Assembly (NCBI GenBank): GCA_002706615.1
Contig: PALS01000029.1
Span: 1 to 14,918, forward strand
Source of the DNA: Methanobacteriota archaeon
GTDB lineage: Archaea; Thermoplasmatota; Poseidoniia; Poseidoniales; Poseidoniaceae
Length of the DNA stretch: 14,918 nt
Direction of reading: 5' to 3'
Shown piece after piece: positions 1 to 12,373 of this stretch. The notes below the pieces were generated by a model. It did no database searches, had not been told where the DNA came from, and worked only from the letters and a program-made list of their open reading frames with translations. The position numbers and the translations under genes are program-made. How positions within the stretch are numbered: the stretch's first letter is position 1; every line of letters starts with the position of its first letter.

Positions 1-377
1 AGGAAATTGAGGGTGATCACAGGGATAATTATTGCTGCACTATGGCCTAAAACAAGGGCAATAGCACTGTGTGTCCGATTTATTGGTTGAGAGAGTTTTA
101 ACTCCAAAACCCCAGTCATTCTATCGCGACTAATTCCATCAAAAGAGATCAAAACCGCTCCCATAGTTGCTGAAAATATAATGAATGCAGTCGAAGCATA
201 CATCACATCGTATGCCGAGTCGATTGTTAGTGATGCAGGGAGATTAGCCTTGGGGTCGGATAGTCCCCAAGTACTGAACAAAATGAATACAAATAACAAT
301 GGCCAAATCACCATCATACGTCCTGCCTTGAAGCGCTCTTTGAAAATCATCTTCGATAATTTGAGCATACTATTCAT
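1..377 (-). CDS. ABC-2 type transporter permease, partial (C-terminus off the left edge)
   Basis: I translated this by hand from the ATG at 377 on the minus strand. It stays open for 125 codons to the edge. The visible N-terminal part has a basic start (MNSMLKLSKMIFKERFKAG), a first membrane helix at about residues 22-37, an extracytoplasmic stretch, and a second hydrophobic segment at about 60-80. A cytoplasmic loop with SFDGISRDRMTGVLELKLS follows, then another helix. A GxxISxDRxxGxLExLLS-like loop after the second helix is typical of ABC-2 (NatB/CcmB-like) permeases. The start codon overlaps the stop of the upstream ATPase gene (ATGA), so the two are almost certainly co-transcribed and form one exporter. 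The substrate is unknown. It could also belong to a multi-permease efflux system whose other parts lie outside the window. Confidence 0.85.
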   Translation of the reverse strand, partial: MNSMLKLSKMIFKERFKAGRMMVIWPLLFVFILFSTWGLSDPKANLPASLTIDSAYDVMYASTAFIIFSATMGAVLISFDGISRDRMTGVLELKLSQPINRTHSAIALVLGHSAAIIIPVITLNF

Positions 378-1288
378 TCTTCTTCAACCTCCAGTCGTTT
401 GAATGGCAGCATGTCATTATTTGTTAATTCAAATCCGATTTCTTCAGGATTTATTCCGGTAGCAGCAGATATTAATTCAACCAAATCGATCGGTTTAGGA
501 GTTAGAGATTCAATTCCTTTGTCCTTGAATTTTTCCAGAGCCTCTTTCGGACTCATTCTAACTTGTTGGGACCAACCTTTTCCTGAAACCAATACATATC
601 CATCAAGACCAAGACTTTTTTCAACCGAATCTAGATTACCTTCAATCAATAACTGTCCTTGGTGTAGAAGAGCTACTCTGTCGATTAAATCAGTCATACC
701 AGCAACTTGATGTGAAGAAATAATTACTGAAACTCCTTTACCAGAGATTTCCTTTAACATAATGCAAAATGCTCTTTGTGCTAAAGGGTCAAGCCCATTT
801 AGTGGTTCATCCATTACTAGAACCTTAGGATTTCCAAGAAGAGCGCATGCCAAAGACAGCCTTTGACGCATACCTTGTGATAGATTATCAAGCGGAGTAT
901 CTGATTTTGTAGAGAGCCCTACAGTGGATAATAACTTGTCAATATTTTCATTTTCATCATGCATCTGTGCAAATAGTTTCAGTGTATTCTTGACGCTAAC
1001 CTTGCCTTCCCAGCGCACTTGCTCAGGCATATGCCCGATCATCCTTCGTCTTGATTCAGCACTACGGTTAATTTCTCCATCATTTTTGTAGATTCCAGAA
1101 ATAACCCGTAATAGAGTTGTTTTCCCCGCTCCATTAGCCCCAATAAGTCCCAAAATAGTCCCAGGTAATATATCTAAATCAATCGAATGAAGGCCAGCTC
1201 CATCTTTCATAGCCCATGGTTTCCATGAAGAATAATCTCGAATTCTGTGCCTGAAAGACACATTTGAAAGTCTCAGCACAGGTTCCAT
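374..1288 (-). CDS. ABC transporter ATP-binding protein (ABC-2 exporter ATPase)
   Basis: From the ATG at 1288 this gives 304 residues, a normal length for a drug/antibiotic-type exporter ATPase (CcmA/NatA class). Walker A GANGAGKT is at 50-57, the Q-loop Gln at about 90, the signature LSQGM at 136-140, Walker B VLVMDE at 156-161 and the switch His at 193. All are intact. The C-terminal ~90 residues (after the 'GQLLIEGNLDSV' segment) form the extra domain common in exporter ATPases. The frame stays open upstream to 1642, but that part has no ABC homology and covers the divergent gene, so I reject the longer form. An ATG at 1360 is a possible alternative, but the ABC fold begins at MEPVLRLSNVSF. 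The stop overlaps the permease start by four bases. Confidence 0.9.
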   Translation of the reverse strand: MEPVLRLSNVSFRHRIRDYSSWKPWAMKDGAGLHSIDLDILPGTILGLIGANGAGKTTLLRVISGIYKNDGEINRSAESRRRMIGHMPEQVRWEGKVSVKNTLKLFAQMHDENENIDKLLSTVGLSTKSDTPLDNLSQGMRQRLSLACALLGNPKVLVMDEPLNGLDPLAQRAFCIMLKEISGKGVSVIISSHQVAGMTDLIDRVALLHQGQLLIEGNLDSVEKSLGLDGYVLVSGKGWSQQVRMSPKEALEKFKDKGIESLTPKPIDLVELISAATGINPEEIGFELTNNDMLPFKRLEVEEE

Positions 1289-1358
1289 TGAGTCCGAGAT
1301 GTAGCGTCGACCTTTACAATGTGCCGCTAAACCATCTTCACAAGGGTTGAACTTATCC

Positions 1359-2189
1359 ATGTTATATCGAGGCGGGAATGTGCTCGGAGGTATATTGGCA
1401 TCGATTATTTTGCTAGGAGTTCTATACTCCTGCTTACGCTGGAAAGCGATCGATTTCGACAGAAATTGCATGATTGCGCTGTCGATATGTGTAGTTTTAC
1501 TTTGGATTATTCCTTGGGGTCTTTTTGTTATAGTACCATTAGTACTAGTAATCTCATTAATTAGTCCAGCAGCAAGAACCGAGTGGAACGACTTTAGAAA
1601 AAGGCGAATAATTACCTCTGTAATACTATTGTTAATACTCAACCTATCTGCTTTCTATCCTACTGCTATTCCGGAGGCTCCAGATGAATGGGGAGAGCCG
1701 ATTGCGGTCGAGAATCCATATGCGCCTAGTTGGCCTTCTAGTCAGCAATATACTTGGTATTATGATGAAGAACAAGCAGTGATTGGAATAGTCAATACTC
1801 GTACTCCACATACATTTTCATCAATTGGACAAACATCCTCTACATTAACTCTAGGAGTGATGCTAGGAATGCATGAGGAAAGATTGCGTCAATCTATTGA
1901 AATTATCAATGACCGAGTTCCAGGTTTCAGCATTGATCCAGAATCATTTACATTAAATGAAGTAGAATCTGAATCAACACACAATTATGGCAATAGCGAA
2001 CTTGAAATAAAAAGATTCGAGGTTAAACGAGATGGTTTTGATACACCGTTAGCCTCGGTTTTAGTAGTTGGATTTTCAAGCTCTGGTGGTGAGTTAACCT
2101 TACTTACAATCTCTAGGTCATTGCTTTCAAATCAAGACGATGTATTTGAAGAAAAAATAGTTTTACAATTCCTTGAACAAAAAGTTTAG
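1359..2189 (+). CDS. Membrane protein of unknown function, three N-terminal helices plus soluble domain
   Basis: About 276 residues. The N-terminal third holds three hydrophobic segments: about 7-25 (GNVLGGILASIILLGVLYS), 36-64 (a long LWIIPWGLFVIVP stretch) and about 80-100 (IITSVILLLILNLSAF). A ~170-residue soluble domain follows. It begins with a Pro/Trp-rich linker (EAPDEWGEPIAVENPYAPSW) and continues as mixed alpha/beta sequence with no motif I recognise. It runs divergently from the ABC exporter, with only about 70 bases between the two starts. The start is uncertain: ATG 1359 is preferred, TTG 1347 is in frame upstream, and a GTG at about 1380 lies close after a GGCGGG run. The stop codon lies inside a strong inverted repeat that is also the putative metal-regulator operator of the next operon. 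Confidence 0.75.
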   Translation: MLYRGGNVLGGILASIILLGVLYSCLRWKAIDFDRNCMIALSICVVLLWIIPWGLFVIVPLVLVISLISPAARTEWNDFRKRRIITSVILLLILNLSAFYPTAIPEAPDEWGEPIAVENPYAPSWPSSQQYTWYYDEEQAVIGIVNTRTPHTFSSIGQTSSTLTLGVMLGMHEERLRQSIEIINDRVPGFSIDPESFTLNEVESESTHNYGNSELEIKRFEVKRDGFDTPLASVLVVGFSSSGGELTLLTISRSLLSNQDDVFEEKIVLQFLEQKV

Positions 2190-2204
2190 GGTCGCCTAAA
2201 CTTT
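2181..2204. promoter_or_regulatory. Perfect inverted repeat, putative DtxR/SirR-type metal-regulator operator 1
   Basis: The left arm AAAGTTTAGG and right arm CCTAAACTTT are perfect reverse complements separated by the four bases GTCG. The core TTAGG-N4-CCTAA has the half-sites and spacing of DtxR/IdeR/SirR-family iron/manganese repressor operators (DtxR core TTAGG-TTAG-CCTAA). The centre lies 56 bases before the GTG of the transferrin-like gene. A weak TATA-like stretch (TTTATGTA, 2202-2209) overlaps the right arm, so a bound repressor would block TBP. The upstream gene's TAG lies in the left arm, so the element could also act as a 3' hairpin, although no T-run follows. The repeat is seen; its regulatory role is inferred. 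Confidence 0.6.
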
Positions 2205-2218
2205 ATGTAGGTCTTGCT

Positions 2219-2234
2219 TTTCGGGAGCCCTAAA
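2219..2234. promoter_or_regulatory. Second, imperfect copy of the same operator motif
   Basis: TTTCGG-GAGC-CCTAAA matches TTTAGG-N4-CCTAAA at 11 of 12 arm positions. Its centre is 34 bases downstream of the centre of the first repeat, about three helical turns, so two repressor dimers could sit on a similar face. It lies between the TATA-like stretch and the start codon, where the transcription start would be expected. Its CCCTAAAC arm could alternatively pair with GTTTAGGG of the first repeat if both were transcribed. Role inferred. Confidence 0.45.
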
Positions 2235-2238
2235 CCGA

Positions 2239-2245
2239 AGGTGAT
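2239..2245 (+). promoter_or_regulatory. Ribosome binding site of the transferrin-like gene
   Basis: AGGTGAT is a perfect seven-base match to the anti-Shine-Dalgarno of archaeal 16S rRNA. It ends three bases before the GTG at 2249. This settles the GTG as the start. The overlapping ATG at 2247 is followed at once by TGA in its own frame and is not used. Confidence 0.75.
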
Positions 2246-2248
2246 TAT

Positions 2249-4453
2249 GTGAATAACTTGAAACTAAAATCTATATTGATGATGCTATTAATGTGCTGTG
2301 CTGCTCTGGCAGGGTGCTTGGATAATGAAGAAGAATCTACTACTAGTGAAGTAGAGGAAAAATGTTCAGGAGATGAATTAAAAATCGCCTATGAAATCAA
2401 AGAAGATGCAGAAGAAATTGCTAATCCTCAACAGATTGCAGATTATCTCTGTGACAAATTAGGAATGGACGTTAGCCTATATGATGTAGGTAGTTCTAGT
2501 ATTGCAATGGAGGCTTTAAGATTTGGAAATGCAGATATTGCATTGAATATTGATGGAGGTCCTGCTTGGGTCGGATGGAATGCGTATAACCTTGATGTTA
2601 TGGCTGCAGATACTAAAGACGATGGTCGTGCGTTCTATGATGCGCATGCATGGGTGAAAAATGGCTCAGATATTGCAGAAGCACATCTTGACGGTGATGA
2701 TTCCACAGATCCATTCTCCTTATTGCAAGGTAAAACCTCATGCCACACTGGTTGGTTGAAATCAGCAGGTATGCTTATGCCAATGGGTTACTTAATCGGT
2801 AATGGATATGTTACTGTAAAAGGTGATATGAGCGATACAGAAACCCTTCGTACTACAATCAATGAATATTTTGATGGAAGCAAGAGTGGCGGTAATGCTG
2901 CTTCAATACCAGAAAGTGGTGCTCTCTACTCCGGATACAGTGGCGCCTTAGAATGCTTAAGTTCAGGTTATGGGGATGTAGCATTTGCAAAGGATTCCAC
3001 TCCTGGTTCTTATTGCAACAATGAAGTTGCTAGCGAAAACGAAGCATGGTGCCTTGAAATGAGCCAATATGTTGCTCTTCCGAAATTTGGTTCCTCTCCT
3101 AGCCATTCAGTAATGTACAATGACGATGTATTGGATGATGATAAGGAAGTATTAATTCGCGATGCACTTGTAGCAATGAAAGATGATGCAGATGGATTAG
3201 CGATTCTAAACAATGTTCTTGGAACAAGTGCAATGATTGCAACTGATGCAGATACTCACCTGGGAACTTACGGGGCTGCTCTAGAGAACATTCCTGGTAT
3301 TTCTAGCAAATACGGTAATGCTTTTTCTGATGGAACTGTTACAGGTGAACTGAAATCAACAATCAACATAGCATACTATCTTGCAGATGATTCCTCTGCT
3401 AATGCAAATGCACAAGGAATGGCGGATAGACTTGCATCAGATCTTGGTGTAAATGTAAATCTTTACGATGTTTCATCCGAGGGAATGATTATCCAAGCTC
3501 TAAGATTTGGTAATGCAGATATAGGTTTCATGGAAGGAGGTCCTGCATGGATTGGCTGGAAGGAATACGGACTTGCCACTCTAGCAGTTGAAACTACTAC
3601 AAGTTCTGGTGACACATATTACAATGCTTCTGCTTGGGTCTTGAATGGTTCAGATATCGCAAATGCTCATCTTGATGGTGACGATTCTACAGACCCATTT
3701 GCACTTCTTGAAGGTAAGACCTCCTGTCATACAGGATGGTTAAAATCCGCTGGTATGCTTATGCCAATGGGATACTTGATAGGAAATGGATATGTTAATC
3801 CAGTTGGTGATGCTTCAGATATAAATTCACTTAGATTAACTATAGATGCTCATTTCGATGGAAGTAATAGCGGTGGAAACGCAGCATCAATTCCTGATTC
3901 AGGTGCGCTATATTCCGGATACGGAGGAGCAGTTGAATGTCTAAGTACAGGATATGGAGATGTAGCATTTGCCAAAGGTGATGATTTTAGCACAGTCGCA
4001 AAATACTGTGATAATGATAATGCCTCTGATAATGAGGAATGGTGCTTAGAGATGGATCAATACGTACAATTGCCATCATTTGGTCAATCACCAAGCCATC
4101 CAGTAATGTATAATCCTGATTTATTAGATGTTTATACTAGGAATGCAATCCTCAATGCTATGCTAAGTTGGAGTGACGAGATGTGGGTCGAAAACTATTC
4201 AATGGGAGGAGACAGTTACACAGGATGCTACAATACTGTAACTCATCAAATTGCAGATATACCTGCAAATCAATGTGGTGGAGAAATAATTTCTTCAGTC
4301 ACCTCAAAGGGTTACAAGCTGAAAGCAGGAAATAGTCAAAACCATCTAGGTAGTTATTCCAATTTACTATCAGCGATTCCAGGACTATCCCAGTATTTCC
4401 ATTCAGATGACAAGTATGGAATTACGGGTGCGGAAAGTTCAGAATCGAATTGA
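2249..4453 (+). CDS. Bilobal transferrin-like lipoprotein (iron-binding component of ABC importer)
   Basis: 734 residues. Residues 1-23 form a lipoprotein signal with lipobox LAGC (Cys23), followed by an acidic linker. Two homologous lobes follow at about 41-365 and 366-734. Each carries transferrin signatures: CHTG-x3-SAG, Y-x-GY-x-GA-x2-CL-x5-GDVAFAK and SPSH. By eye alignment to human transferrin, lobe 1 has Asp102, Tyr130, Tyr230 and His286 for iron ligands Asp63, Tyr95, Tyr188 and His249. It also has Thr167 for anion-binding Thr120, Lys171 for Arg124, Cys165/Cys236 for the Cys118-Cys194 disulfide, and Cys256/Cys268 near Cys227-Cys241. Lobe 2 has Glu429, Tyr458, Tyr558, His617, Thr495, Lys499 and Cys493/Cys564. 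Transferrins and PhnD-type binding proteins share a periplasmic-binding fold, so a 'phosphonate-binding PhnD' label is likely elsewhere. The motifs favour carbonate-dependent ferric iron binding at the cell surface. Iron binding is inferred; family membership is strongly supported. Confidence 0.88.
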   Translation: MNNLKLKSILMMLLMCCAALAGCLDNEEESTTSEVEEKCSGDELKIAYEIKEDAEEIANPQQIADYLCDKLGMDVSLYDVGSSSIAMEALRFGNADIALNIDGGPAWVGWNAYNLDVMAADTKDDGRAFYDAHAWVKNGSDIAEAHLDGDDSTDPFSLLQGKTSCHTGWLKSAGMLMPMGYLIGNGYVTVKGDMSDTETLRTTINEYFDGSKSGGNAASIPESGALYSGYSGALECLSSGYGDVAFAKDSTPGSYCNNEVASENEAWCLEMSQYVALPKFGSSPSHSVMYNDDVLDDDKEVLIRDALVAMKDDADGLAILNNVLGTSAMIATDADTHLGTYGAALENIPGISSKYGNAFSDGTVTGELKSTINIAYYLADDSSANANAQGMADRLASDLGVNVNLYDVSSEGMIIQALRFGNADIGFMEGGPAWIGWKEYGLATLAVETTTSSGDTYYNASAWVLNGSDIANAHLDGDDSTDPFALLEGKTSCHTGWLKSAGMLMPMGYLIGNGYVNPVGDASDINSLRLTIDAHFDGSNSGGNAASIPDSGALYSGYGGAVECLSTGYGDVAFAKGDDFSTVAKYCDNDNASDNEEWCLEMDQYVQLPSFGQSPSHPVMYNPDLLDVYTRNAILNAMLSWSDEMWVENYSMGGDSYTGCYNTVTHQIADIPANQCGGEIISSVTSKGYKLKAGNSQNHLGSYSNLLSAIPGLSQYFHSDDKYGITGAESSESN

Positions 4454-4475
4454 AACTACCATCTAAATAATACCA

Positions 4476-4489
4476 TTCATCGGGATGAA
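4476..4489 (+). other. Intergenic inverted repeat between binding-protein and ATPase genes
   Basis: TTCATC and GATGAA flank two bases in the 50-base gap after the transferrin-like gene. Outer ACCAT (4472-4476) and ATGGT (4496-4500) can extend the fold, and would enclose the purine-rich stretch just before the ATPase start. In binding-protein operons such hairpins often let the binding protein be made in excess. That role is inferred. Confidence 0.3.
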
Positions 4490-4503
4490 CTGGGGATGGT
4501 TAC

Positions 4504-5217
4504 TTGCAAGATGTGAACAGCCCTTTGAATGATGAAAAAAAGGCTGATATTGGTACCAGTAAAATATTGAATCTAAAGAATCTTTCAATAGGATACAAAG
4601 AGCCATTGGTCTCCAAAATAAACAAGGAGATTATAGCTGGTGAATCTATTGCTATAGTGGGGCCCTCAGGTATTGGGAAAACCACACTTCTGCGAACGAT
4701 TGCTGGTTTAATAATCCCGGTTTCCGGAGAGATATCTCATACGATTCCTAAGAGGGGAGGAATCGGTTATATCCCCCAGAAATTAGGACTAATTCGCCAT
4801 TCAAGTGTTAGAAATAATATTGCTTTAGGAGCCAGAACAAGACGTTCAAGATGGTACCCAGCATTATTTCCATTAGATCGGTCTTTGAAAAATGATATTG
4901 AAGATGCAATGGAATCTTTGAACATCAAAGAATTAGCTGATGAACCTGTAAGGATTTTATCAGGTGGCCAACAACGAAGAGTCGCAATTGCTAGGACACT
5001 AATCCAAAGACCACAATTAATCTTGGCTGATGAATTCCTTGGAGAGTTGGATTCAGAGAATATCAAATCGATAGTTAAGGCTACAAAGAAAATCATTGAA
5101 GAAATAGGTGCTACCTTAATCATGGTAGAGCATAATGAAGAAAGAGCTCTTCAGATGGCTGATCGTATTTGGAGAATTAAAGGAAATGAATTAATTGAGG
5201 ATGGTGATTTCGATTAA
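4504..5217 (+). CDS. PhnC-family ABC importer ATPase
   Basis: 237 residues with a complete nucleotide-binding domain: Walker A GPSGIGKT at 53-60, Q-loop Gln92 (YIPQKLG), signature LSGGQQRR at 152-159, Walker B LILADE at 172-177 and switch His210. The segment between Q-loop and signature (LGARTRRSRWYPALFPLDR) matches the characteristic PhnC insert. This pairs it with the PhnE-like permease that follows rather than with FbpC-type iron importers. Its frame overlaps the permease start by about 17 bases. I chose TTG 4504, behind a GGGGATGG purine run; GTG 4513 is the alternative. It should power the importer fed by the transferrin-like lipoprotein, so iron is a better substrate guess than phosphonate. 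Function is known for the family; the substrate is inferred. Confidence 0.88.
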   Translation: MQDVNSPLNDEKKADIGTSKILNLKNLSIGYKEPLVSKINKEIIAGESIAIVGPSGIGKTTLLRTIAGLIIPVSGEISHTIPKRGGIGYIPQKLGLIRHSSVRNNIALGARTRRSRWYPALFPLDRSLKNDIEDAMESLNIKELADEPVRILSGGQQRRVAIARTLIQRPQLILADEFLGELDSENIKSIVKATKKIIEEIGATLIMVEHNEERALQMADRIWRIKGNELIEDGDFD

Positions 5218-6241
5218 CAAGAAATTATTTTTCACAGGTACAATTTTACTTGTTTTAACAATGGTTTTCTTGGATGATCTGGTTGAAGATTGGGGCCAAA
5301 TTGAAGATGCTCCTGAAAAACTACAGACATTTTTCTCAGAAGATCTGTGGCCTCCTGATTGGTCGGTTTTAGAAGCAGAGGTTTGGGTTGATGGTTCTCT
5401 GCATAAGCCAAATGGGGATATTTGTGATGAAAGTTTTGAACTGTTTTGTTCCAAGGCATGGACTGGAATGGTAGTCACATTAAAGATGGCCTTTATTGCA
5501 ACATTAATCGGTTTCATAATTTCAATACCACTTGCATCTATAGCAGCAAACAATCTAGCACCCTTGCCAATCAACTTGGCTGCTAGAATAATTTTGGCAG
5601 GTCTGAGAAGTTTGCCTAGTATTATCTGGGCACTTCTTTTTGCCATTGCTATAGGTTTTGGACCTTTACCTGGAATTTTAGCTATGACCCTTTACACAAT
5701 AGGATATCTAGGCAAACTTCAGTATGAATCTATGGAAGGTATCGCAAATTCTCCTCTAGAATCTGGTATGGCAATGGGATTGACACATTCTGAAAGGTTG
5801 TTTCATATCGTAATTCCTGAATCTAGTAATCATCTAATTAGTCAACTATTGTTCATGTTTGAATATAACGTTAGGCATGGGGCAGTTCTTGGATTAGTTG
5901 GAGCAGGTGGTATTGGTATGTATATCGACAATTACATCAATCCACCATTTGACTATGATCGAGCATTTGCGCTGTTAATAGTAGTCTTTGTAGTAGTAGT
6001 AGTTATAGATCTGATATCTATGTTTATTCGTTCTTTCGTTACCGAAGAAGGAGATGTCAAGAGGCCTAAATGGTGGACAATATTACTTCCCGCAGGCATG
6101 GCAATGGAATATTATAATCAAAAAGACGTCGAAGATGAAAGCGAGGCGGAAACAGAGGCCATCGAAGTTGATATTAACCCTCCATTGAGCCATCACGCCC
6201 AACAGGTCAAAAAACTCTCAAATTTGGAGGAATCTGAATGA
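5201..6241 (+). CDS. PhnE-family ABC importer permease with extra extracytoplasmic loop and acidic tail
   Basis: 346 residues from ATG 5201 (TTG 5195 and GTG 5204 are also possible). The first membrane helix is at about 9-25. A ~65-residue extracytoplasmic segment follows, with Cys75 and Cys83, then helices from about 90 onward (TLKMAFIATLIGFIISIP, LRSLPSIIWALLFAIAIGFG). The cytoplasmic EAA-type loop (ESMEGIANSPLESGMAMG) couples to the ATPase. NVRHGAVLGLVGAGGIG is the typical PhnE ending motif. The last ~65 residues form a hydrophilic acidic cytoplasmic tail not usual in PhnE. The loop with two cysteines is placed where it could contact the binding protein. The stop overlaps the next gene's ATG by four bases. 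Confidence 0.87.
   Translation: MVISINKKLFFTGTILLVLTMVFLDDLVEDWGQIEDAPEKLQTFFSEDLWPPDWSVLEAEVWVDGSLHKPNGDICDESFELFCSKAWTGMVVTLKMAFIATLIGFIISIPLASIAANNLAPLPINLAARIILAGLRSLPSIIWALLFAIAIGFGPLPGILAMTLYTIGYLGKLQYESMEGIANSPLESGMAMGLTHSERLFHIVIPESSNHLISQLLFMFEYNVRHGAVLGLVGAGGIGMYIDNYINPPFDYDRAFALLIVVFVVVVVIDLISMFIRSFVTEEGDVKRPKWWTILLPAGMAMEYYNQKDVEDESEAETEAIEVDINPPLSHHAQQVKKLSNLEESE
6226..6230 (+). promoter_or_regulatory. Ribosome binding site of the HmuY-like gene
   Basis: GGAGG lies seven bases before the ATG at 6238, inside the end of the permease gene. It fixes the start of the next gene and shows that the two are translated from the same transcript. Confidence 0.7.
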
Positions 6242-7173
6242 ATAGTATAATCAAGAAATTTAGCGCAGTATTTTTGGTAATGTGCCTAGCAGTTGCCGTA
6301 TACTGGACAGTAATGATGTATAATTATGAATCTGATTCGGGTACTGAAAATATATTTTCAAGTACCGATGTTCAATCATTCGTTTCGAATAATTCCAGTG
6401 ATAACTTATTTGATTTAGCATTTGAATCTGGAACTGATGATTTAGATTGGTCTCGTACTAAAATTACTCTTAGTAACGAAGGCAATGAGTTTCAGTGCAC
6501 CACAGGTGGGTTGATTTCTTTATCTGAAGGAAGTGGTAAAGTCAAGACCTCGCTTGCTGCAGATGGTATAACGTTCAACGCAGAGATTGATGCCGATTCA
6601 GATGATTTTGTTTATGTCAAGATCGGAGAAATGGAGCAATCTAATGAAAGTGATTACACAATTAGGTTTTCAAAAACAGATATTTTTCTGAGCCAAAATG
6701 TTGTAGGACTTTATTTAGACGAAGTCAATTTTAACACCTTAAATAATTCCAATATTGAAGGTCTAAATTATACAGAAAGTTCTGAAGAAAGATTAGATTG
6801 GTACGATTATGACCTCTCTGTGCATCGAGTGGAGGCCAAAGATAGAGTCTATGTAATTGATGATAATTCGACTAAATATAAAATTCAATTTTTGAATTAC
6901 TATAATTCAGATGACGAGCAAAGGCAAATTAGTTTAGTAATTTCTTGGATAGATGGAGAGCCATTTCAAGCATTAAATGATCCAGAAAAAACTCAGCCTT
7001 CACCATGTATATTGATAGATAACAATCCAGAAGAAAATTTGTGGAGAAGTAATGAGACAATCTCAGTACGAGAAAATAATATCGATATTTGTAATTCTAG
7101 CTGTGAATTAATTGTTATGATTTATTATGAAGGAGTCAAAGTAGAAGGTAAAAATTCAATCTTAATCAATTGA
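6238..7173 (+). CDS. Membrane-anchored extracytoplasmic protein, HmuY-like
   Basis: 311 residues. A short basic N-terminus and one hydrophobic helix (about 8-27) anchor it; no lipobox is visible. The rest is acidic, Asn/Ser-rich and predicted extracytoplasmic. Residues about 188-240 (WYDYD...H...DRVYVIDD...KYKIQFLNYYNSDD) resemble the C-terminal part of HmuY-family haem-binding proteins, whose pattern is WYxYx..H.....vyvi.t.dg.Y.Kl...sYY. Residues 57-90 (DLAFESGTDDLDW...FQC) may be a separate beta-domain. Cysteines at 87, 257, 285 and 289 could form disulfides. As the last gene of the transferrin-like importer operon, it may be an accessory iron or haem receptor. The HmuY assignment is a pattern match from memory and is moderate to weak; the gene itself is secure. 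Confidence 0.6.
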   Translation: MNSIIKKFSAVFLVMCLAVAVYWTVMMYNYESDSGTENIFSSTDVQSFVSNNSSDNLFDLAFESGTDDLDWSRTKITLSNEGNEFQCTTGGLISLSEGSGKVKTSLAADGITFNAEIDADSDDFVYVKIGEMEQSNESDYTIRFSKTDIFLSQNVVGLYLDEVNFNTLNNSNIEGLNYTESSEERLDWYDYDLSVHRVEAKDRVYVIDDNSTKYKIQFLNYYNSDDEQRQISLVISWIDGEPFQALNDPEKTQPSPCILIDNNPEENLWRSNETISVRENNIDICNSSCELIVMIYYEGVKVEGKNSILIN

Positions 7174-7175
7174 TT
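7164..7175. other. 12-base perfect palindrome holding both stop codons of a convergent gene pair
   Basis: AATCAATTGATT is its own reverse complement. The plus-strand gene ends at TGA 7171-7173 and the minus-strand gene ends at the TGA read at 7168-7166. The two genes therefore overlap by eight bases and stop symmetrically. No separate terminator fits between them. Confidence 0.8.
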
Positions 7176-7495
7176 TTATGTCTAATTTTGGCAATAAATC
7201 GGTATCCTAGGTCTCTAATTGGTAGAGGGATAATCCATACAAATGGGAACATCCAGCGCCAATTCCACTTCATGTATAGTAAGCAGCGAATAGCAGCCGC
7301 AGAGCGAATATACGGCTTTCCATTTCGAATCAATACAACCGAATCTTCTGTGATCTCATGTTTTTCTAGTAGGGCAATGCCTTCCTCGCTTTGTAATTCT
7401 GAAAGAGTCAAAGGACCACTAAGACGCTTGGTCAAAAAGTAACCACTCCGTGAGCATAGAGCGCACAATCCGTCCAGAAGAAGAATGTCTTGCAT
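7166..7495 (-). CDS. DCC (DUF393/YuxK) family thiol-disulfide oxidoreductase-like protein
   Basis: 109 residues from ATG 7495. It has the family hallmarks in order: ILLLDGLCALC near the N-terminus (CxxC at Cys11 and Cys14, here DGLCALC where DGxCxLC is usual), SVVLIRNGKPYIRSAAAIRCL in the middle, and the Pro-containing PLPIRDLGYRFIAKIRHK end. Length is normal for the family. The exact substrate of DCC proteins is not established; the CxxC suggests thiol redox chemistry. The start lies one base after the stop of the small upstream gene, so translation is probably coupled. A longer in-frame start at 7525 would overlap that gene and is less likely. The C-terminal stop lies in the convergent palindrome. 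Confidence 0.85.
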   Translation of the reverse strand: MQDILLLDGLCALCSRSGYFLTKRLSGPLTLSELQSEEGIALLEKHEITEDSVVLIRNGKPYIRSAAAIRCLLYMKWNWRWMFPFVWIIPLPIRDLGYRFIAKIRHKIN

Positions 7496-7496
7496 A

Positions 7497-7712
7497 TTAC
7501 TCAGCAGCAATGTGTACATTGCCATCTTCGTAGTAAATTTGGATTCGATTTGGCAATTTTTTTGTCAATGATGCTACGCCTTCGTAAATCTTCTCTTCCT
7601 TGCATTTGAATGATTTAGCTGCAGTTTTACTAGACCATGCGACTTCTTCGAAATCAGACTTACAAAGCCATGCAAAAAGTCGAGCCTCAAACTCGGTTAG
7701 TTCTTCTGCCAT
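7497..7712 (-). CDS. Small winged-helix-like protein of unknown function
   Basis: 71 residues from ATG 7712, chosen because GGGAGG lies three bases upstream on the minus strand; the longer frame from 7736 lacks such a site. Predicted layout: helix 1 (EFEARLFAWLCK), helix 2 (WSSKTAAKSF), helix 3 (KEEKIYEGVASLTKKL), then two strands (RIQIYYEDGNVHIAAE). This resembles a minimal winged helix. Two cysteines are present but no clear metal site. It sits between gpsA and the DCC gene on the same strand. It could be a DNA-binding regulator or a protein-interaction domain. I do not recognise a specific family. Confidence 0.7.
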   Translation of the reverse strand: MAEELTEFEARLFAWLCKSDFEEVAWSSKTAAKSFKCKEEKIYEGVASLTKKLPNRIQIYYEDGNVHIAAE

Positions 7713-8852: not shown

Positions 8853-10069
8853 AACAAATCATCATCATCTTCTTCAGTTACGAAAAGGTCGTCATTGTCT
8901 GATTCCTCTTTCTTTTTGTTCGCGGCTTTTTTCTTCGATTTAGCCGGCTTGGCCTTTTCCTTAGTTGTAGTTTCGTCTTTAGCAGGTTCAGCCTCTTCTT
9001 TAGTAGGTTCAGCCTCTTCCTTTACAGGAGCCGCCTTTTCATCAGGATGAGGAGCAAGTGCATCTTTTGCACGTGCAGCAGCCACTTGAGCTTCTCGAGC
9101 AGCCATTTCTTCAGGTGAGATATTAGCCTGAGCAGCAAGAGTCCTACGACGGTCTTCTCGAGCCTTTCGTTCAAGTTGCTTATGCCTCGAACGCTCGATA
9201 TTTTGCATCATATACATTGCATCATGTTCCAGTAAAGGAGAATCAGAAATAAGTGTAATATCAAGCCAAGACCCATCTTCAATGATAAATTCTCCAAGAG
9301 GTTCGAAATTTAAATCTGATTTTTTGATTTGAGTGTAGTGCATTGCATTACCCATTCGGTGTTCAACTCCAGAGAAATGACAGTAAAACTCCTTAGTGCC
9401 GATAGTCTCTCTAACTTGATCAAATAATTCCCCGTAGTCTTCAGAAGTTCGAAGCCTACCGTGACCTCTAGCATGTATGTGGGCTAGATTCAGCACAGGA
9501 ATAGTTCCTTCAACATGATTTACCACCTCCAATACTTCCTCTAGGCTGCCCCATAATTCTTGTCTACCGCTTGTTTCAACTCCTATTAGAGGAGCTGGTT
9601 GTTCTTTTAGCCAAGGGAATACCGGGTATAGGTCATCATCATCATTCCAAATTTCATTGATTCTTTCAACAATTCCTTTGAACACGCTGGCGACCTGTTC
9701 GTTAGCAGCTTGGCCACGGCCAGTTTCCCCATAGTGTCCGGTGTGGAGGGTAATATGACGTGCATTGATAGTCTTCGCAGCTTGTAGTGCTGCCTCAGTT
9801 TTCGCCAGACTTCTATTTCTCTCCATTCTATTTCCTAAAAATTCAGAATAATAGGGTCCATGAATATTCATTTCAAAGTCTGTTTTGTGAGCCAAAACTC
9901 CGGCCTGCCAGTATTGCTCAAAGTGTTGAGGGGCGACCATGCGCACGGTTTGGACCTCCATCGTCTCCAATCCAAGAGAGATGATATCATCCATTCCTTC
10001 GACTATAGTACGGCCTTTACAAGAGAGTGGAACACCCGCTGGTCCTAGTTTCACTGGCATAACATCCAT
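8849..10069 (-). CDS. nfo: Endonuclease IV-like (AP endonuclease family 2) TIM-barrel protein with charged C-terminal tail
   Basis: 406 residues, or 403 from ATG 10060, whose start better matches the archaeal family (KLGPAGVPLSCKGRT). The barrel spans about 5-295 and carries HGPYY (His70), ITLHTGHY (His109), GVETSG (Glu165), NLAHIHARGHG (His197), HFSGVEH (His231) and DSPLLEHDA. These match the zinc-site segments of archaeal endonuclease IV relatives, which repair abasic sites. Two ligand positions differ: Asn194 stands where DxxH is normal, and Asp276 where the family has ESP. Activity may therefore be altered. The last ~110 residues are a Lys/Glu/Ala-rich low-complexity tail that ends in acidic sequence with two DDLF motifs. 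It is divergent from ribB. Family is secure; nuclease activity is inferred. Confidence 0.85.
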   Translation of the reverse strand: MDVMPVKLGPAGVPLSCKGRTIVEGMDDIISLGLETMEVQTVRMVAPQHFEQYWQAGVLAHKTDFEMNIHGPYYSEFLGNRMERNRSLAKTEAALQAAKTINARHITLHTGHYGETGRGQAANEQVASVFKGIVERINEIWNDDDDLYPVFPWLKEQPAPLIGVETSGRQELWGSLEEVLEVVNHVEGTIPVLNLAHIHARGHGRLRTSEDYGELFDQVRETIGTKEFYCHFSGVEHRMGNAMHYTQIKKSDLNFEPLGEFIIEDGSWLDITLISDSPLLEHDAMYMMQNIERSRHKQLERKAREDRRRTLAAQANISPEEMAAREAQVAAARAKDALAPHPDEKAAPVKEEAEPTKEEAEPAKDETTTKEKAKPAKSKKKAANKKKEESDNDDLFVTEEDDDDLF

Positions 10070-10076
10070 CCCCGCA

Positions 10077-10135
10077 GGTCCACCCCAAAGGGTGCCCTAT
10101 GTTAACCCCTTTCCGTAAAATGGATGTTTTGGACC
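10077..10135. promoter_or_regulatory. Nested inverted repeats in the divergent region before ribB
   Basis: The 116-base gap between the endonuclease IV-like gene and ribB holds two nested repeats. GGTCCA (10077-10082) pairs with TGGACC (10130-10135), and AAAGGG (10087-10092) pairs with CCCTTT (10107-10112). This could be an operator for a riboflavin-responsive regulator (RbkR-type in euryarchaea) or a leader fold. It does not match the FMN riboswitch. A G-rich run (10143-10155) follows. Function inferred only. Confidence 0.3.
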
Positions 10136-10185
10136 TAAATTCGGGGGTGGGTGGGTTCATGAGATAGGAACCTTCCGCCCGACTC

Positions 10186-10884
10186 ATGGAGCCACATGTG
10201 GAGGCGGCGATAGTTGCCTTTAGACAGGGAAAACCAGTATGCCTCTTCGATGCTGAAAACCGAGAAGGTGAAACCGACCTACTGTTTCCAGCACAATTTG
10301 CTTCACCTGCTACTATGAGGCAATTAAGATTTGATTGTGGCGGACTTTTATTCCTGGCAATAGGTCACGAAGTAGGTGAAAGATTCGCTCTACCTTATCT
10401 GCAAGATCTCCACACAGAAGACGTATTGATGTCAAAGTATCCAGTTCTTCATTCACTTCAAACAAATGACTTACAGTATGATTCCCGTAGTGCTTTTACC
10501 CTCTCAATAAATCATCGTGATACATTTACTGGTATTACAGACCGTGACCGAGCACTTACTACACGTAGGTTTGCGGAATTATTTGCAGAAGTTGAAAATT
10601 CAGGAGAAGATGCCATCTTAGCTCTTGGCAAAGAGTTCCGTACTCCAGGACATATTCCTGTTTGTCGAGAATCTAAAGGAGGTCTTTCGGTTAGGCAAGG
10701 TCATACCGAATTGGCGGTCGGCTTAGCAAAATTATCAGGTCTTTCTCCAATTGTAATAGGCGCTGAAATGTTACAGCCTGACGGTGATTTAGCATTATCA
10801 GTTGCGGATGCAAGAATTTGGGCTAATGAGAGAGGGATTCCTTTCCTTACCGGAGAGGAATTGATTAATGCCCTAGGAATCTAA
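10186..10884 (+). CDS. ribB: 3,4-dihydroxy-2-butanone 4-phosphate synthase
   Basis: 232 residues, the stand-alone archaeal length. It converts ribulose 5-phosphate to 3,4-dihydroxy-2-butanone 4-phosphate plus formate, one of the two substrates for lumazine synthase. The signature acidic loop DAENREGETD is at 22-31. DSRSAFTLSINHRDTFTGIT-type substrate contacts are at about 99-118, TPGH at 153-156, and HTE at 173-175 with the following LAKLSGLSP helix. All expected catalytic and metal residues appear present. It opens a run of riboflavin/FAD genes (ribB, ribL, ribE, ribH), with a 36-base gap before ribL. GTP cyclohydrolase and pyrimidine reductase/deaminase genes are not in the window. Confidence 0.95.
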   Translation: MEPHVEAAIVAFRQGKPVCLFDAENREGETDLLFPAQFASPATMRQLRFDCGGLLFLAIGHEVGERFALPYLQDLHTEDVLMSKYPVLHSLQTNDLQYDSRSAFTLSINHRDTFTGITDRDRALTTRRFAELFAEVENSGEDAILALGKEFRTPGHIPVCRESKGGLSVRQGHTELAVGLAKLSGLSPIVIGAEMLQPDGDLALSVADARIWANERGIPFLTGEELINALGI

Positions 10885-10920
10885 GAATAAGGACTACTCA
10901 GCAAGAACGGGGGAGAATAC

Positions 10921-11373
10921 ATGGTGCGAGTTTTGGCAGTCGGTGTTTTTGACCTCCTTCACGCAGGACACCTTCACTACCTAGAGCAAGCAAAATCTTT
11001 GGGTGACCATTTGGTTGTGGTCGTGGCTCATGATGATACAGTTCGCAAACGCAAGCATGAACCCGTGACAGGACAAGAACTCCGCTGTAGAATGGTTGCA
11101 GGATTGAAACCAGTAGATGAGTCACTTATTGGCAATCCTCCAGATGTTCCAATCTTTGACATTTTGCCTGTGATCAAACCTGATATAATCGCTTTAGGAT
11201 ACGACCAAGAGCATGCTGAAGAAAGGATTCGTGCTGCACTAAATGAAAGGGAAATGGGTCACATCGAAGTTACTAGAGTGGAAGGCCTTTCTGATGATTT
11301 AGATGGAACAAGAAAAATAATTGCTCGTATTTTGCAATTATCTACAGGTCCAAAAGAGGATGGTGAGCTCTGA
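10921..11373 (+). CDS. ribL: FAD synthetase, archaeal RibL type (FMN adenylyltransferase)
   Basis: 150 residues. It is a single nucleotidyltransferase domain that transfers AMP from ATP to FMN, giving FAD. GVFDLLHAGHLHYLEQA carries the HxGH motif (His14-His17) near the N-terminus. VTGQELRCRMVAGLKPVDE and the IIALGYDQ strand follow, all typical of the glycerol-3-phosphate cytidylyltransferase-like RibL family found in archaea. A purine-rich GGGGGAGA precedes the ATG. The stop shares a base with the ribE start (TGATG), so translation is coupled. Position in a riboflavin operon favours FAD synthesis over a lipid-head-group cytidylyltransferase. Confidence 0.9.
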   Translation: MVRVLAVGVFDLLHAGHLHYLEQAKSLGDHLVVVVAHDDTVRKRKHEPVTGQELRCRMVAGLKPVDESLIGNPPDVPIFDILPVIKPDIIALGYDQEHAEERIRAALNEREMGHIEVTRVEGLSDDLDGTRKIIARILQLSTGPKEDGEL

Positions 11374-11978
11374 TGTTTACAGGTATTGTCGCAGGTATGG
11401 GCCGAGTTGAAAGTATTGAAGGTGATGAATTAGTACGCCTAGTAATCAATTTTTCAACAGTTCCAACCGAGGGATTAGAAATCGGTGCAAGCGTTTCAGT
11501 TAATGGAGTCTGTCTGACTGCAGTAGAAATTATAGGAAGTACGGTTGCATTCGATGTTATCTCTGAAACACTCAATCTAACCACGCTTGGAACATTAGCA
11601 GAAGGAAATTGGGTAAATCTCGAGCGCGCTTTGAAGGTAGGAGATGAAATTGGAGGACATTTACTATCGGGACATATTATGGGGACTGGAGAAATAATTG
11701 TTAGAGAAGAAACCGATGAAAATACGGATTTAGTCATAGATTGTCCAGCAGATATCATGCGTTTTATTCAGCCCAAAGGATATATCGCAATAGATGGAAT
11801 TTCATTAACCGTAGGCAGGGTAGAAGAAAACACATTTTCATTGCATATTATTCCAGAAACATTGCGTTTGACAACTCTTGGAGTGAAAGGATTGGGTAGC
11901 GATGTTAACTTAGAGGTCGATTCGATGACTCAAACTATTGTGGCCACAGTAGAACGAATGATGGAGGGTAAAGTATGA
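11373..11978 (+). CDS. ribE: Riboflavin synthase, bacterial/eukaryotic two-domain (alpha) type
   Basis: 201 residues with two lumazine-binding domains in tandem (about 1-97 and 98-195). It begins MFTGIV, as the family requires. VSVNGVCLTAV occurs in domain 1 and its counterpart IAIDGISLTVG in domain 2, and GGHLLSGHIMGTG lies between them. It dismutates two 6,7-dimethyl-8-ribityllumazines to riboflavin. Most archaea use an unrelated lumazine-synthase-like RibC, so this trimeric-type enzyme suggests acquisition from bacteria. It overlaps ribL by one base and ribH by four (ATGA), with GGAGG just before ribH. Confidence 0.95.
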   Translation: MFTGIVAGMGRVESIEGDELVRLVINFSTVPTEGLEIGASVSVNGVCLTAVEIIGSTVAFDVISETLNLTTLGTLAEGNWVNLERALKVGDEIGGHLLSGHIMGTGEIIVREETDENTDLVIDCPADIMRFIQPKGYIAIDGISLTVGRVEENTFSLHIIPETLRLTTLGVKGLGSDVNLEVDSMTQTIVATVERMMEGKV

Positions 11979-12373
11979 GTAAAATAGCAATAGTCTGTGG
12001 TAGTTTTCATAAAAACGAAGTAGAAAAAATGTTAGCATGGGCCCATGAAGAAGCTGAAAATTATGGCCTAGAAATCATTGAAACAGTTTGGGTGCCTGGT
12101 GCAATGGAGGTTCCATTAGCATTGGATAGAATGCTTGAGAGAGAAGATATCATTGGTGCAGCATGTTTAGGAATTATCGAGAAAGGTAGTACTCAACACG
12201 GTCTTGCAATGGGCCAGGCAGTAATCAAGTCGATTATCGAGTTACAACTAGTTCACGAAAAACCAGTTGGATTAGGGATAATTGGACCAGGTGCTGAACC
12301 TCAACACATTGAACCACGCTTAGAGCCTCATGCTAGAGCTGCAGTCGCAGCAATTTCAACTATGCTTGAATGA
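11975..12373 (+). CDS. ribH: 6,7-dimethyl-8-ribityllumazine synthase
   Basis: 132 residues, slightly short like archaeal members. It condenses the pyrimidine and the RibB product into the lumazine used by ribE. VPGAMEVPLAL is the substrate-binding loop. GIIEKGSTQHGLAMGQAVIKSIIE holds the conserved segment with the His general acid, and KPVGLGIIGPGAEPQHIEPRLEPHARAAVAA matches the archaeal RibH C-terminus (GISGPG...R...AV) rather than RibC. It is translationally coupled to ribE. A stem-loop covers its stop codon, suggesting that the core riboflavin unit ends or is attenuated here. Confidence 0.93.
   Translation: MSKIAIVCGSFHKNEVEKMLAWAHEEAENYGLEIIETVWVPGAMEVPLALDRMLEREDIIGAACLGIIEKGSTQHGLAMGQAVIKSIIELQLVHEKPVGLGIIGPGAEPQHIEPRLEPHARAAVAAISTMLE

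Follow-up and report, generated by a model that had tools for sequence, protein, structure and literature searches.

The animal transferrins (serum transferrin, lactoferrin, ovotransferrin and melanotransferrin) combine two lobes with four iron ligands, Thr120 and cysteines at positions 118 and 194, and we find these same features in a protein encoded by a marine archaeon at positions 2249 to 4453 of a 14,918-nucleotide stretch of contig PALS01000029.1 (assembly GCA_002706615.1), the whole of which we call the window. The window protein differs from its animal counterparts in being a predicted archaeal lipoprotein encoded beside ABC importer genes, in having Lys in place of Arg124, and in likely owing its two-lobed state to a duplication of its own. 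Ferric binding proteins of the FbpA type, the so-called 'bacterial transferrins', are Fe(III)-binding proteins of ABC importers that reached iron binding separately, with adjacent tyrosines; compared by description, they have the same proposed job as the window protein and came to it by a separate route. PhnD, PtxB and HtxB (PF12974) have in common with the window protein the fold and the PhnC/PhnE type of partner, though PhnD and PtxB controls are without three of the four iron ligands and both cysteines, and the window protein misses the PhnD cut-offs. The diatom phytotransferrin ISIP2a, likened here by description, captures Fe(III) at the marine cell surface in a carbonate-dependent manner, a mode that we propose to be common to both proteins; ISIP2a is endocytosed in diatoms, according to a review, whereas in the archaeon an ABC importer would take the iron.

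Our analysis, drawn from sequence comparison, makes it likely that the two-lobed transferrin homologue encoded at 2249-4453 binds one Fe(III) per lobe, with carbonate, and it would feed the ABC importer encoded downstream. This reading draws on homology, a conserved ligand set, gene order and promoter palindromes, all directly observed. The reading frame begins at a GTG codon and encodes 734 residues. The window comes from contig 37 in a draft genome (1.89 Mb, 81.8% complete), and the named near relatives belong to 'Candidatus Poseidoniales', Poseidoniaceae and Thalassarchaeaceae, that is, to the Marine Group II (MGII) archaea. The gene and its parts are as follows.

2249 to 4453, plus strand: transferrin homologue with two lobes, a predicted lipoprotein that likely serves an ABC importer as its Fe(III)-binding protein (PF00405, PF12974, best solved relatives)
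2306 to 2317, plus strand: lipobox LAGC, residues 20-23, ending at C23 (sequence and homologue alignment)
2369 to 3298, plus strand: lobe 1, about residues 41-350, with D102, Y130, T167, K171, Y230, H286 and C165/C236
3359 to 4429, plus strand: lobe 2, about residues 371-727, with E429, Y458, T495, K499, Y558, H617 and C493/C564

Against Pfam, the whole protein matches the transferrin family PF00405 at 104.2 bits (E = 1e-29, cut-off 20.3), and among solved structures its sequence comes closest to lactoferrins, ovotransferrins, serotransferrins and melanotransferrin. All 60 listed of the 92 solved relatives at E <= 1 belong to the transferrin family, inhibitor of carbonic anhydrase included. 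A profile of 14 archaeal single-lobed relatives likewise reaches melanotransferrin at E 6.2e-55, and the 60 listed of its 111 matches are transferrins, saxiphilins and inhibitor of carbonic anhydrase. The predicted structure (pLDDT 79.2, pTM 0.73) retrieves transferrin-family structures in all 50 Foldseek rows listed, with a best E of 2.4e-27, and the lobe-to-lobe placement in the model is unlike that of solved transferrins (whole-chain rmsd 10-21). The preliminary description of this DNA had proposed an archaeal bilobal transferrin, and the profile score and solved relatives bear that proposal out more strongly than it was first stated.

Alignment to lactoferrin and ovotransferrin places the candidate ligands at D102, Y130, Y230 and H286 in lobe 1 and at E429, Y458, Y558 and H617 in lobe 2, positions which we take to be Asp63, Tyr95, Tyr188 and His249 in serum transferrin numbering. 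As the preliminary description had held, all four are identical in lobe 1 and three are identical in lobe 2, where Glu replaces Asp; the transferrin core motifs stand in both halves of the translation (SCHTG-x-x-K-SAG at C165 and C493, tyrosine motifs YSGYSGALECL and YSGYGGAVECL, GDVAFAK twice, and PSH with H286 and H617); and the Cys118/Cys194 positions are filled in both lobes by C165/C236 and C493/C564, which are predicted to form bonds. The Thr120 position is kept as T167 and T495, and the anion-binding Arg124 position is occupied by K171 and K499, a conservative but different residue.

These features extend across the homologues, of which 647 were found at E <= 1e-3. An alignment of the window protein with the 120 listed of these (one being the window's own protein) comprises 121 rows, in which the lobe 1 ligands are conserved as Asp in 121, Tyr in 121, Tyr in 121 and His in 119, and those of lobe 2 as Asp in 90 or Glu in 31, Tyr in 121, Tyr in 121 and His in 120, with one gap. 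Both cysteine positions are kept in every row of each lobe (121/121), and Lys stands at the Arg124 position in 120/121 and 121/121 rows of the two lobes. Among proteins shorter than 420 residues (97 from 120 listed of 530 matches, 23 longer proteins having been set aside), Asp is present in 94, Tyr95 in 97, Thr120 in 97, Tyr188 in 96, His in 97 and both cysteines in 97. A whole-genome census of 66 genes, comprising 92 lobes, found the four ligands intact with few exceptions, namely the two-lobed paralogues L079, L080 and L098, a single-lobed protein without Tyr188 (L066), a truncated lobe (L060), and Glu for Asp in ten second lobes as well as in the single copy L022. The change from Arg124 to Lys holds nearly throughout all three homologue sets. 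Ovotransferrin lobes, compared in the same way, have the full ligand set with Arg, and the melanotransferrin C-lobe has Ser at Asp63. In the controls, E. coli PhnD, Agrobacterium PtxB, Loktanella PhnD and Thiothrix PhnD, Tyr95 is the sole ligand of the four that is kept; D63, Y188, H249 and both cysteines are absent from all of them, and Loktanella PhnD alone also has the His119-Thr120 pair.

The Labrenzia and Marinovum proteins were dropped as clean PhnD controls since Y95, Y188 and H249 are common to them and the transferrins. Marine alphaproteobacterial proteins labelled 'PhnD' and encoded in an operon with cytochrome c peroxidase (L176 at 19-4814, with mntR, and L177 to L181), have Tyr95, Tyr188 and His249 as in transferrins and are without Asp63, the CHT motif and the cysteine pair; they possibly represent a further metal-binding branch between PhnD and transferrin.

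The lipobox-anchored form claimed in the preliminary description also stands, in that LAGC is present and its G22 and C23 are unchanged in 44/44 aligned homologues, lipidation itself being a prediction. A strict lipobox pattern within the first 40 residues is matched by 69/120 listed homologues, a low count that we think is due in part to unsure gene starts. The product is predicted to lie at the surface, as a lipoprotein outside the archaeal membrane. Immediately downstream, three further genes complete the operon.

4504 to 5217, plus strand: ABC transporter ATPase, PhnC-like (PF00005 103.5 bits; TIGR02315 PhnC 133 bits, below the 266 cut-off)
5195 to 6241, plus strand: ABC transporter permease, PhnE-like (TIGR01097 222.8 bits, above the 216.7 cut-off; PF00528)
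6238 to 7173, plus strand: fourth operon gene, encoding an N-terminal helix and a predicted HmuY-like domain

The genes are tightly packed, with 50 bp between the transferrin-like reading frame and the ATPase gene, an overlap of ATPase and permease genes, and another of permease and fourth gene. Among the 47 named loci with 2.5 kb of room on the contig, the ATPase and permease genes immediately follow the transferrin gene in 46 and precede it in the remaining one, and the association, which the preliminary description had drawn from this one locus, holds in named and further relatives of several groups. Adjacent ATPase and permease genes are usual where a binding protein works with an importer of its own. 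The product of the fourth gene is predicted to adopt the HmuY fold, and it scores 17.0 bits with Pfam HmuY (PF14064), below the cut-off of 27; its N-terminal helix is likely a membrane anchor, and the protein is possibly accessory to iron capture.

The promoter region of the operon contains two palindromes and an intervening element.

2186 to 2199, no strand assigned: palindrome box 1, TTAGGGTCGCCTAA, a likely operator whose half-sites resemble those of DtxR-type iron boxes (exact match to TTAGGNNNNCCTAA)
2202 to 2209, plus strand: putative TATA-like element between the boxes, TTTATGTA (sequence reading)
2220 to 2233, no strand assigned: palindrome box 2, TTCGGGAGCCCTAA, with a single mismatch, at a distance of 34 bp from box 1

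Exact matches to TTAGGNNNNCCTAA are expected 0.03 times in the window, and a consensus built from 56 aligned relatives again shows a TATA-like stretch following box 1. We counted boxes in 66 related genes with a recognised lipobox, leaving out 21 without one. An exact TTAGG-N4-CCTAA occurs within 300 bp 5' of the lipobox in 58 of these genes (backwards control 0), and a box with one mismatch allowed occurs in 62 (backwards control 4); 51 genes have two or more such sites. The four boxless genes are the ligand-less paralogues L079, L080 and L048, together with L075, which has a DtxR-family gene directly upstream in place of the box. L079 and L080 have one box separating the ligand-less gene from that of the ATPase, and another ahead of the separate copy with intact ligands. 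Boxes also precede transferrin copies that have no ABC partner in the stretch examined. In the Natronococcus and L113 loci we found no exact box, and L113 has a one-mismatch version; nor was an exact box found in L131, where the contig starts at the DtxR gene and stops short of the promoter. The pattern is placed before transferrin genes rather than enriched across the genome: in a single-contig relative (G002, 2.1 Mb) both places with the exact box lie before the transferrin gene, and in the window's genome one of two lies at the operon. The other, on contig C49, falls inside a reading frame, presumably that of a transhydrogenase subunit, and was taken as chance.

Known DtxR sites have the same half-sites, TTAGG and CCTAA, with nine bases between them (PMC524172), whereas the spacing here is four. 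A DtxR-family gene lies directly upstream of the transferrin gene in one Thermoplasmatota locus (L075) and in Natronococcus; similarity to the L075 gene returned only L131, the same stretch as L075, among 64 named loci, so that such a gene is not a general neighbour. DtxR-family genes above cut-off are present in 40/40 genomes of the order and also in 12/14 control genomes. From these observations we infer that a DtxR-type protein may bind at the boxes. Boxes also occur at the 5' ends of Fea1-family genes in two relatives, L048 (9929, gene 9948-11228) and L042 (3266, gene 1963-3405). The products of these low-iron-inducible family members score 70.5 and 70.0 bits with PF07692, and the L048 protein reaches 350.6 bits against a cut-off of 250 as a FEA1-related lipoprotein (NF038033). 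The same palindrome stands beside genes of a different family, of which no member was found among the window proteins scanned. Next to both Fea1 genes lies a divergent gene whose product, about 680 residues long, matches no family convincingly.

Genomes sampled evenly from larger groups show how widespread the family is: PF00405 is found in 234/292 genomes of the order, covering 20/22 genera, and in 113/389 genomes of the phylum, six of these 113 being from outside the order (three from its class, three from elsewhere); it was found in none of 14 control genomes. Relatives also occur in a Woesearchaeota record (L112) and on a plasmid of Natronococcus occultus SP4 (L175, 4195-7591). This plasmid has, in order, a DtxR-family regulator, the transferrin-like gene, an ATPase gene and phnE; its transferrin-like gene is split over two frames and missing from the gene table, and an iron-sulfur cluster repair gene lies nearby. 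A two-lobed operon on a contig labelled Flavobacteriaceae (L154, Flavobacteriaceae bacterium NAT90) is probably an MGII contig wrongly binned. Copies with intact ligands and no adjacent ABC genes occur in L040, L042 and L048. The two-lobed paralogues of L079, L080 and L048 (L098) have lost ligands and have no box in front, a separate single-lobed copy keeping both; in L079 and L080 the ligand-less paralogue sits at the ABC locus.

A tree of 48 rows, for which the program warned of long branches, unites the archaeal and eukaryotic transferrin lobes in a single starred group (100/100) that excludes PhnD and the Labrenzia-type proteins. Within it, both lobes of the archaeal two-lobed proteins fall in a starred set of 20 rows that includes no eukaryotic lobe. 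The three-lobed protein P0028 (1156 residues, all four ligands in each lobe) has an extra copy of lobe 1, its lobes 1 and 2 being sisters. A joint clade of archaeal first lobes, with the P0028 second lobe, and eukaryotic N-lobes was rejected (p 9.85e-06), which argues for an independent two-lobed origin; the archaeal lobe duplication was therefore likely independent of the animal one. That relatives with one lobe occupy the same chromosomal position suggests that the doubling took place within these archaea. The tree also placed eukaryotic transferrins inside the archaeal ones, a branching that we treat as tentative in view of the long branches and because the alternative, all archaeal rows together, was not rejected (p 0.37).

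We propose that the cleft of each lobe would close on one Fe(III), with an Asp (or Glu), two Tyr and a His as its ligands, and that carbonate would dock on the start of the CHT-x-x-x-K helix; in PhnD-type proteins, the corresponding site holds the phosphonate group. The two lobes would give each anchored protein two capture sites. The lipoprotein would pass released iron to the PhnC/PhnE-like pair for import, and the protein with the HmuY-like domain may assist, perhaps by taking iron or heme. When iron is plentiful, a metal-sensing DtxR-type repressor on the two boxes around the TATA element would block transcription. This system is likely a main iron route, and maybe not the sole one, given that FeoB_C was found in 0/60 genomes, FecCD above cut-off in 7/60, and SBP_bac_6 (PF13343), a group possibly including FbpA-like proteins, in 32/60.

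Several observations weigh against this interpretation. The box pattern is not enriched genome-wide, its backwards control occurring at 6 places in G002 and at 5 in the window's genome against 2 for the box in each. The phosphonate-binding family PF12974 nearly ties with PF00405 over the whole protein (94.8 bits), and it exceeds PF00405 in three archaeal relatives outside MGII. Each modelled lobe fits the PhnD-type proteins HtxB and PtxB as well as it fits transferrin (VIA). The PF12974 score and the lobe fits, together with a permease that passes the PhnE cut-off and an MGII survey that counts phosphonate transport among core functions (PMC6336850), would suit a duplicated PhnD of a normal PhnCDE importer for phosphonate, phosphite or phosphate, in which the transferrin-like letters persist by descent only. 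We consider this explanation unlikely. Per lobe, PF00405 (55.7 and 40.8 bits) stays slightly ahead of PF12974 (52.7 and 40.6), so that no non-transferrin family scores clearly higher, in keeping with the preliminary description. The structure prediction, another of its proposed checks, takes the transferrin fold but is not decisive, since the lobes lie equally near HtxB and PtxB; fold was therefore dropped as a deciding criterion, and it is residues that separate transferrin from PhnD. Plain PhnD identity is rejected by the residue controls and by two missed cut-offs, those of the PhnD equivalog TIGR03431 (35.6 bits against 261.1) and of TIGR01098 (70.8 bits against 112.05). A search for two phosphonate enzymes, PhnJ and PhnX, also makes phosphonate feeding unlikely: PhnJ, of the C-P lyase, was found in 0/96 genomes of the order with a positive E. 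coli control, and PhnX above cut-off in 0/60 genomes, a search without a positive control as 14 control genomes also had none. The box, the two DtxR neighbours and the co-occurrence with Fea1 favour a metal.

Two further explanations accept a metal and differ in its fate or identity. The protein could bind Fe(III) mainly as a surface store or concentrator, a role proposed for Fea1 in a review (PMC7676907), with the ABC genes serving some other cargo or the direct uptake of ferric complexes. The intact-ligand copies of L040, L042 and L048, which have no ABC genes and have boxes of their own, would fit this, as would L079 and L080, where the ABC-linked two-lobed copy lost its ligands and a separate copy keeps them; the directly downstream ATPase and permease genes in nearly all named loci argue against it, and we regard a storage role as quite improbable. 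Alternatively, another hard metal ion or anion-metal pair, such as Mn(III), Al(III) or Fe(III)-citrate, could take the place of Fe(III)-carbonate. DtxR relatives include manganese sensors, MntR is encoded beside distant relatives in Labrenzia, and the change from Arg to Lys alters the anion site. Yet transferrins hold Fe(III)-carbonate with this same set of Asp-Tyr-Tyr-His and Thr120, and the boxes also accompany genes of Fea1, a family named as low-iron-inducible; we regard a different cargo as very improbable. We therefore continue to favour a transferrin homologue that captures Fe(III) with carbonate for the adjoining importer.

The remainder of the window contains further genes. At 374-2189 an ABC ATPase gene on the minus strand overlaps a reading frame of 280 residues, a pair that recurs 5' of the operon in seven relatives (L035-L039, L046 and L051). 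A gene for a DCC1-like thiol-disulfide oxidoreductase (7166-7525, minus strand) adjoins the operon, with a homologue at the same place in one relative, L038. A riboflavin synthesis run at 10186-12373 encodes DHBP synthase, a cytidylyltransferase-like protein, a lumazine-binding protein and lumazine synthase.

A search by term of open-licence literature for Poseidoniales, archaeal and prokaryotic transferrins, in which most of the papers listed were left unopened, found no paper on an MGII or archaeal transferrin; matches to the word that were looked up proved to be 'transferring' in three papers and a host transferrin in one. The statement in the preliminary description that a two-lobed prokaryotic version had not been described agrees with this search, but the sequences are not new to databases, where PF00405 and PF12974 are both already placed on these proteins under automatic names such as 'PhnD/SsuA/transferrin family substrate-binding protein' and 'melanoma-associated antigen p97'. 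As far as this search shows, what is new comprises the census of ligands, the constancy of the ABC partners, the box, the partner that has the HmuY-like domain, and a lobe duplication of likely independent origin. We also favour, with modest confidence and as one claim, a wider reading in which a true transferrin would feed the most abundant surface-ocean archaea with iron, as a lipid-anchored, one- to three-lobed, carbonate-dependent trap with PhnCE-type docking, an iron-sensing repressor and HmuY-fold and Fea1 partners, representing a living intermediate between phosphonate-binding proteins and the animal and algal transferrins and leaving 'phosphonate transport' in these organisms largely misnamed.

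How MGII archaea acquire iron in iron-poor surface water appears open: of two MGII papers searched for it, one mentions iron solely in iron-sulfur proteins and the other nowhere. If our interpretation is correct, transferrin-style iron capture would be a feeding device of microbes too, beyond animals and algae, and MGII genomes would need their label of 'phosphonate transport' corrected. A transferrin that serves an ABC importer as binding protein would fill a gap between the PhnD type and the eukaryotic transferrins, and the two-lobed transferrin would have evolved twice. Iron uptake by these archaea may, as in diatoms, be carbonate-dependent and therefore sensitive to ocean acidification.

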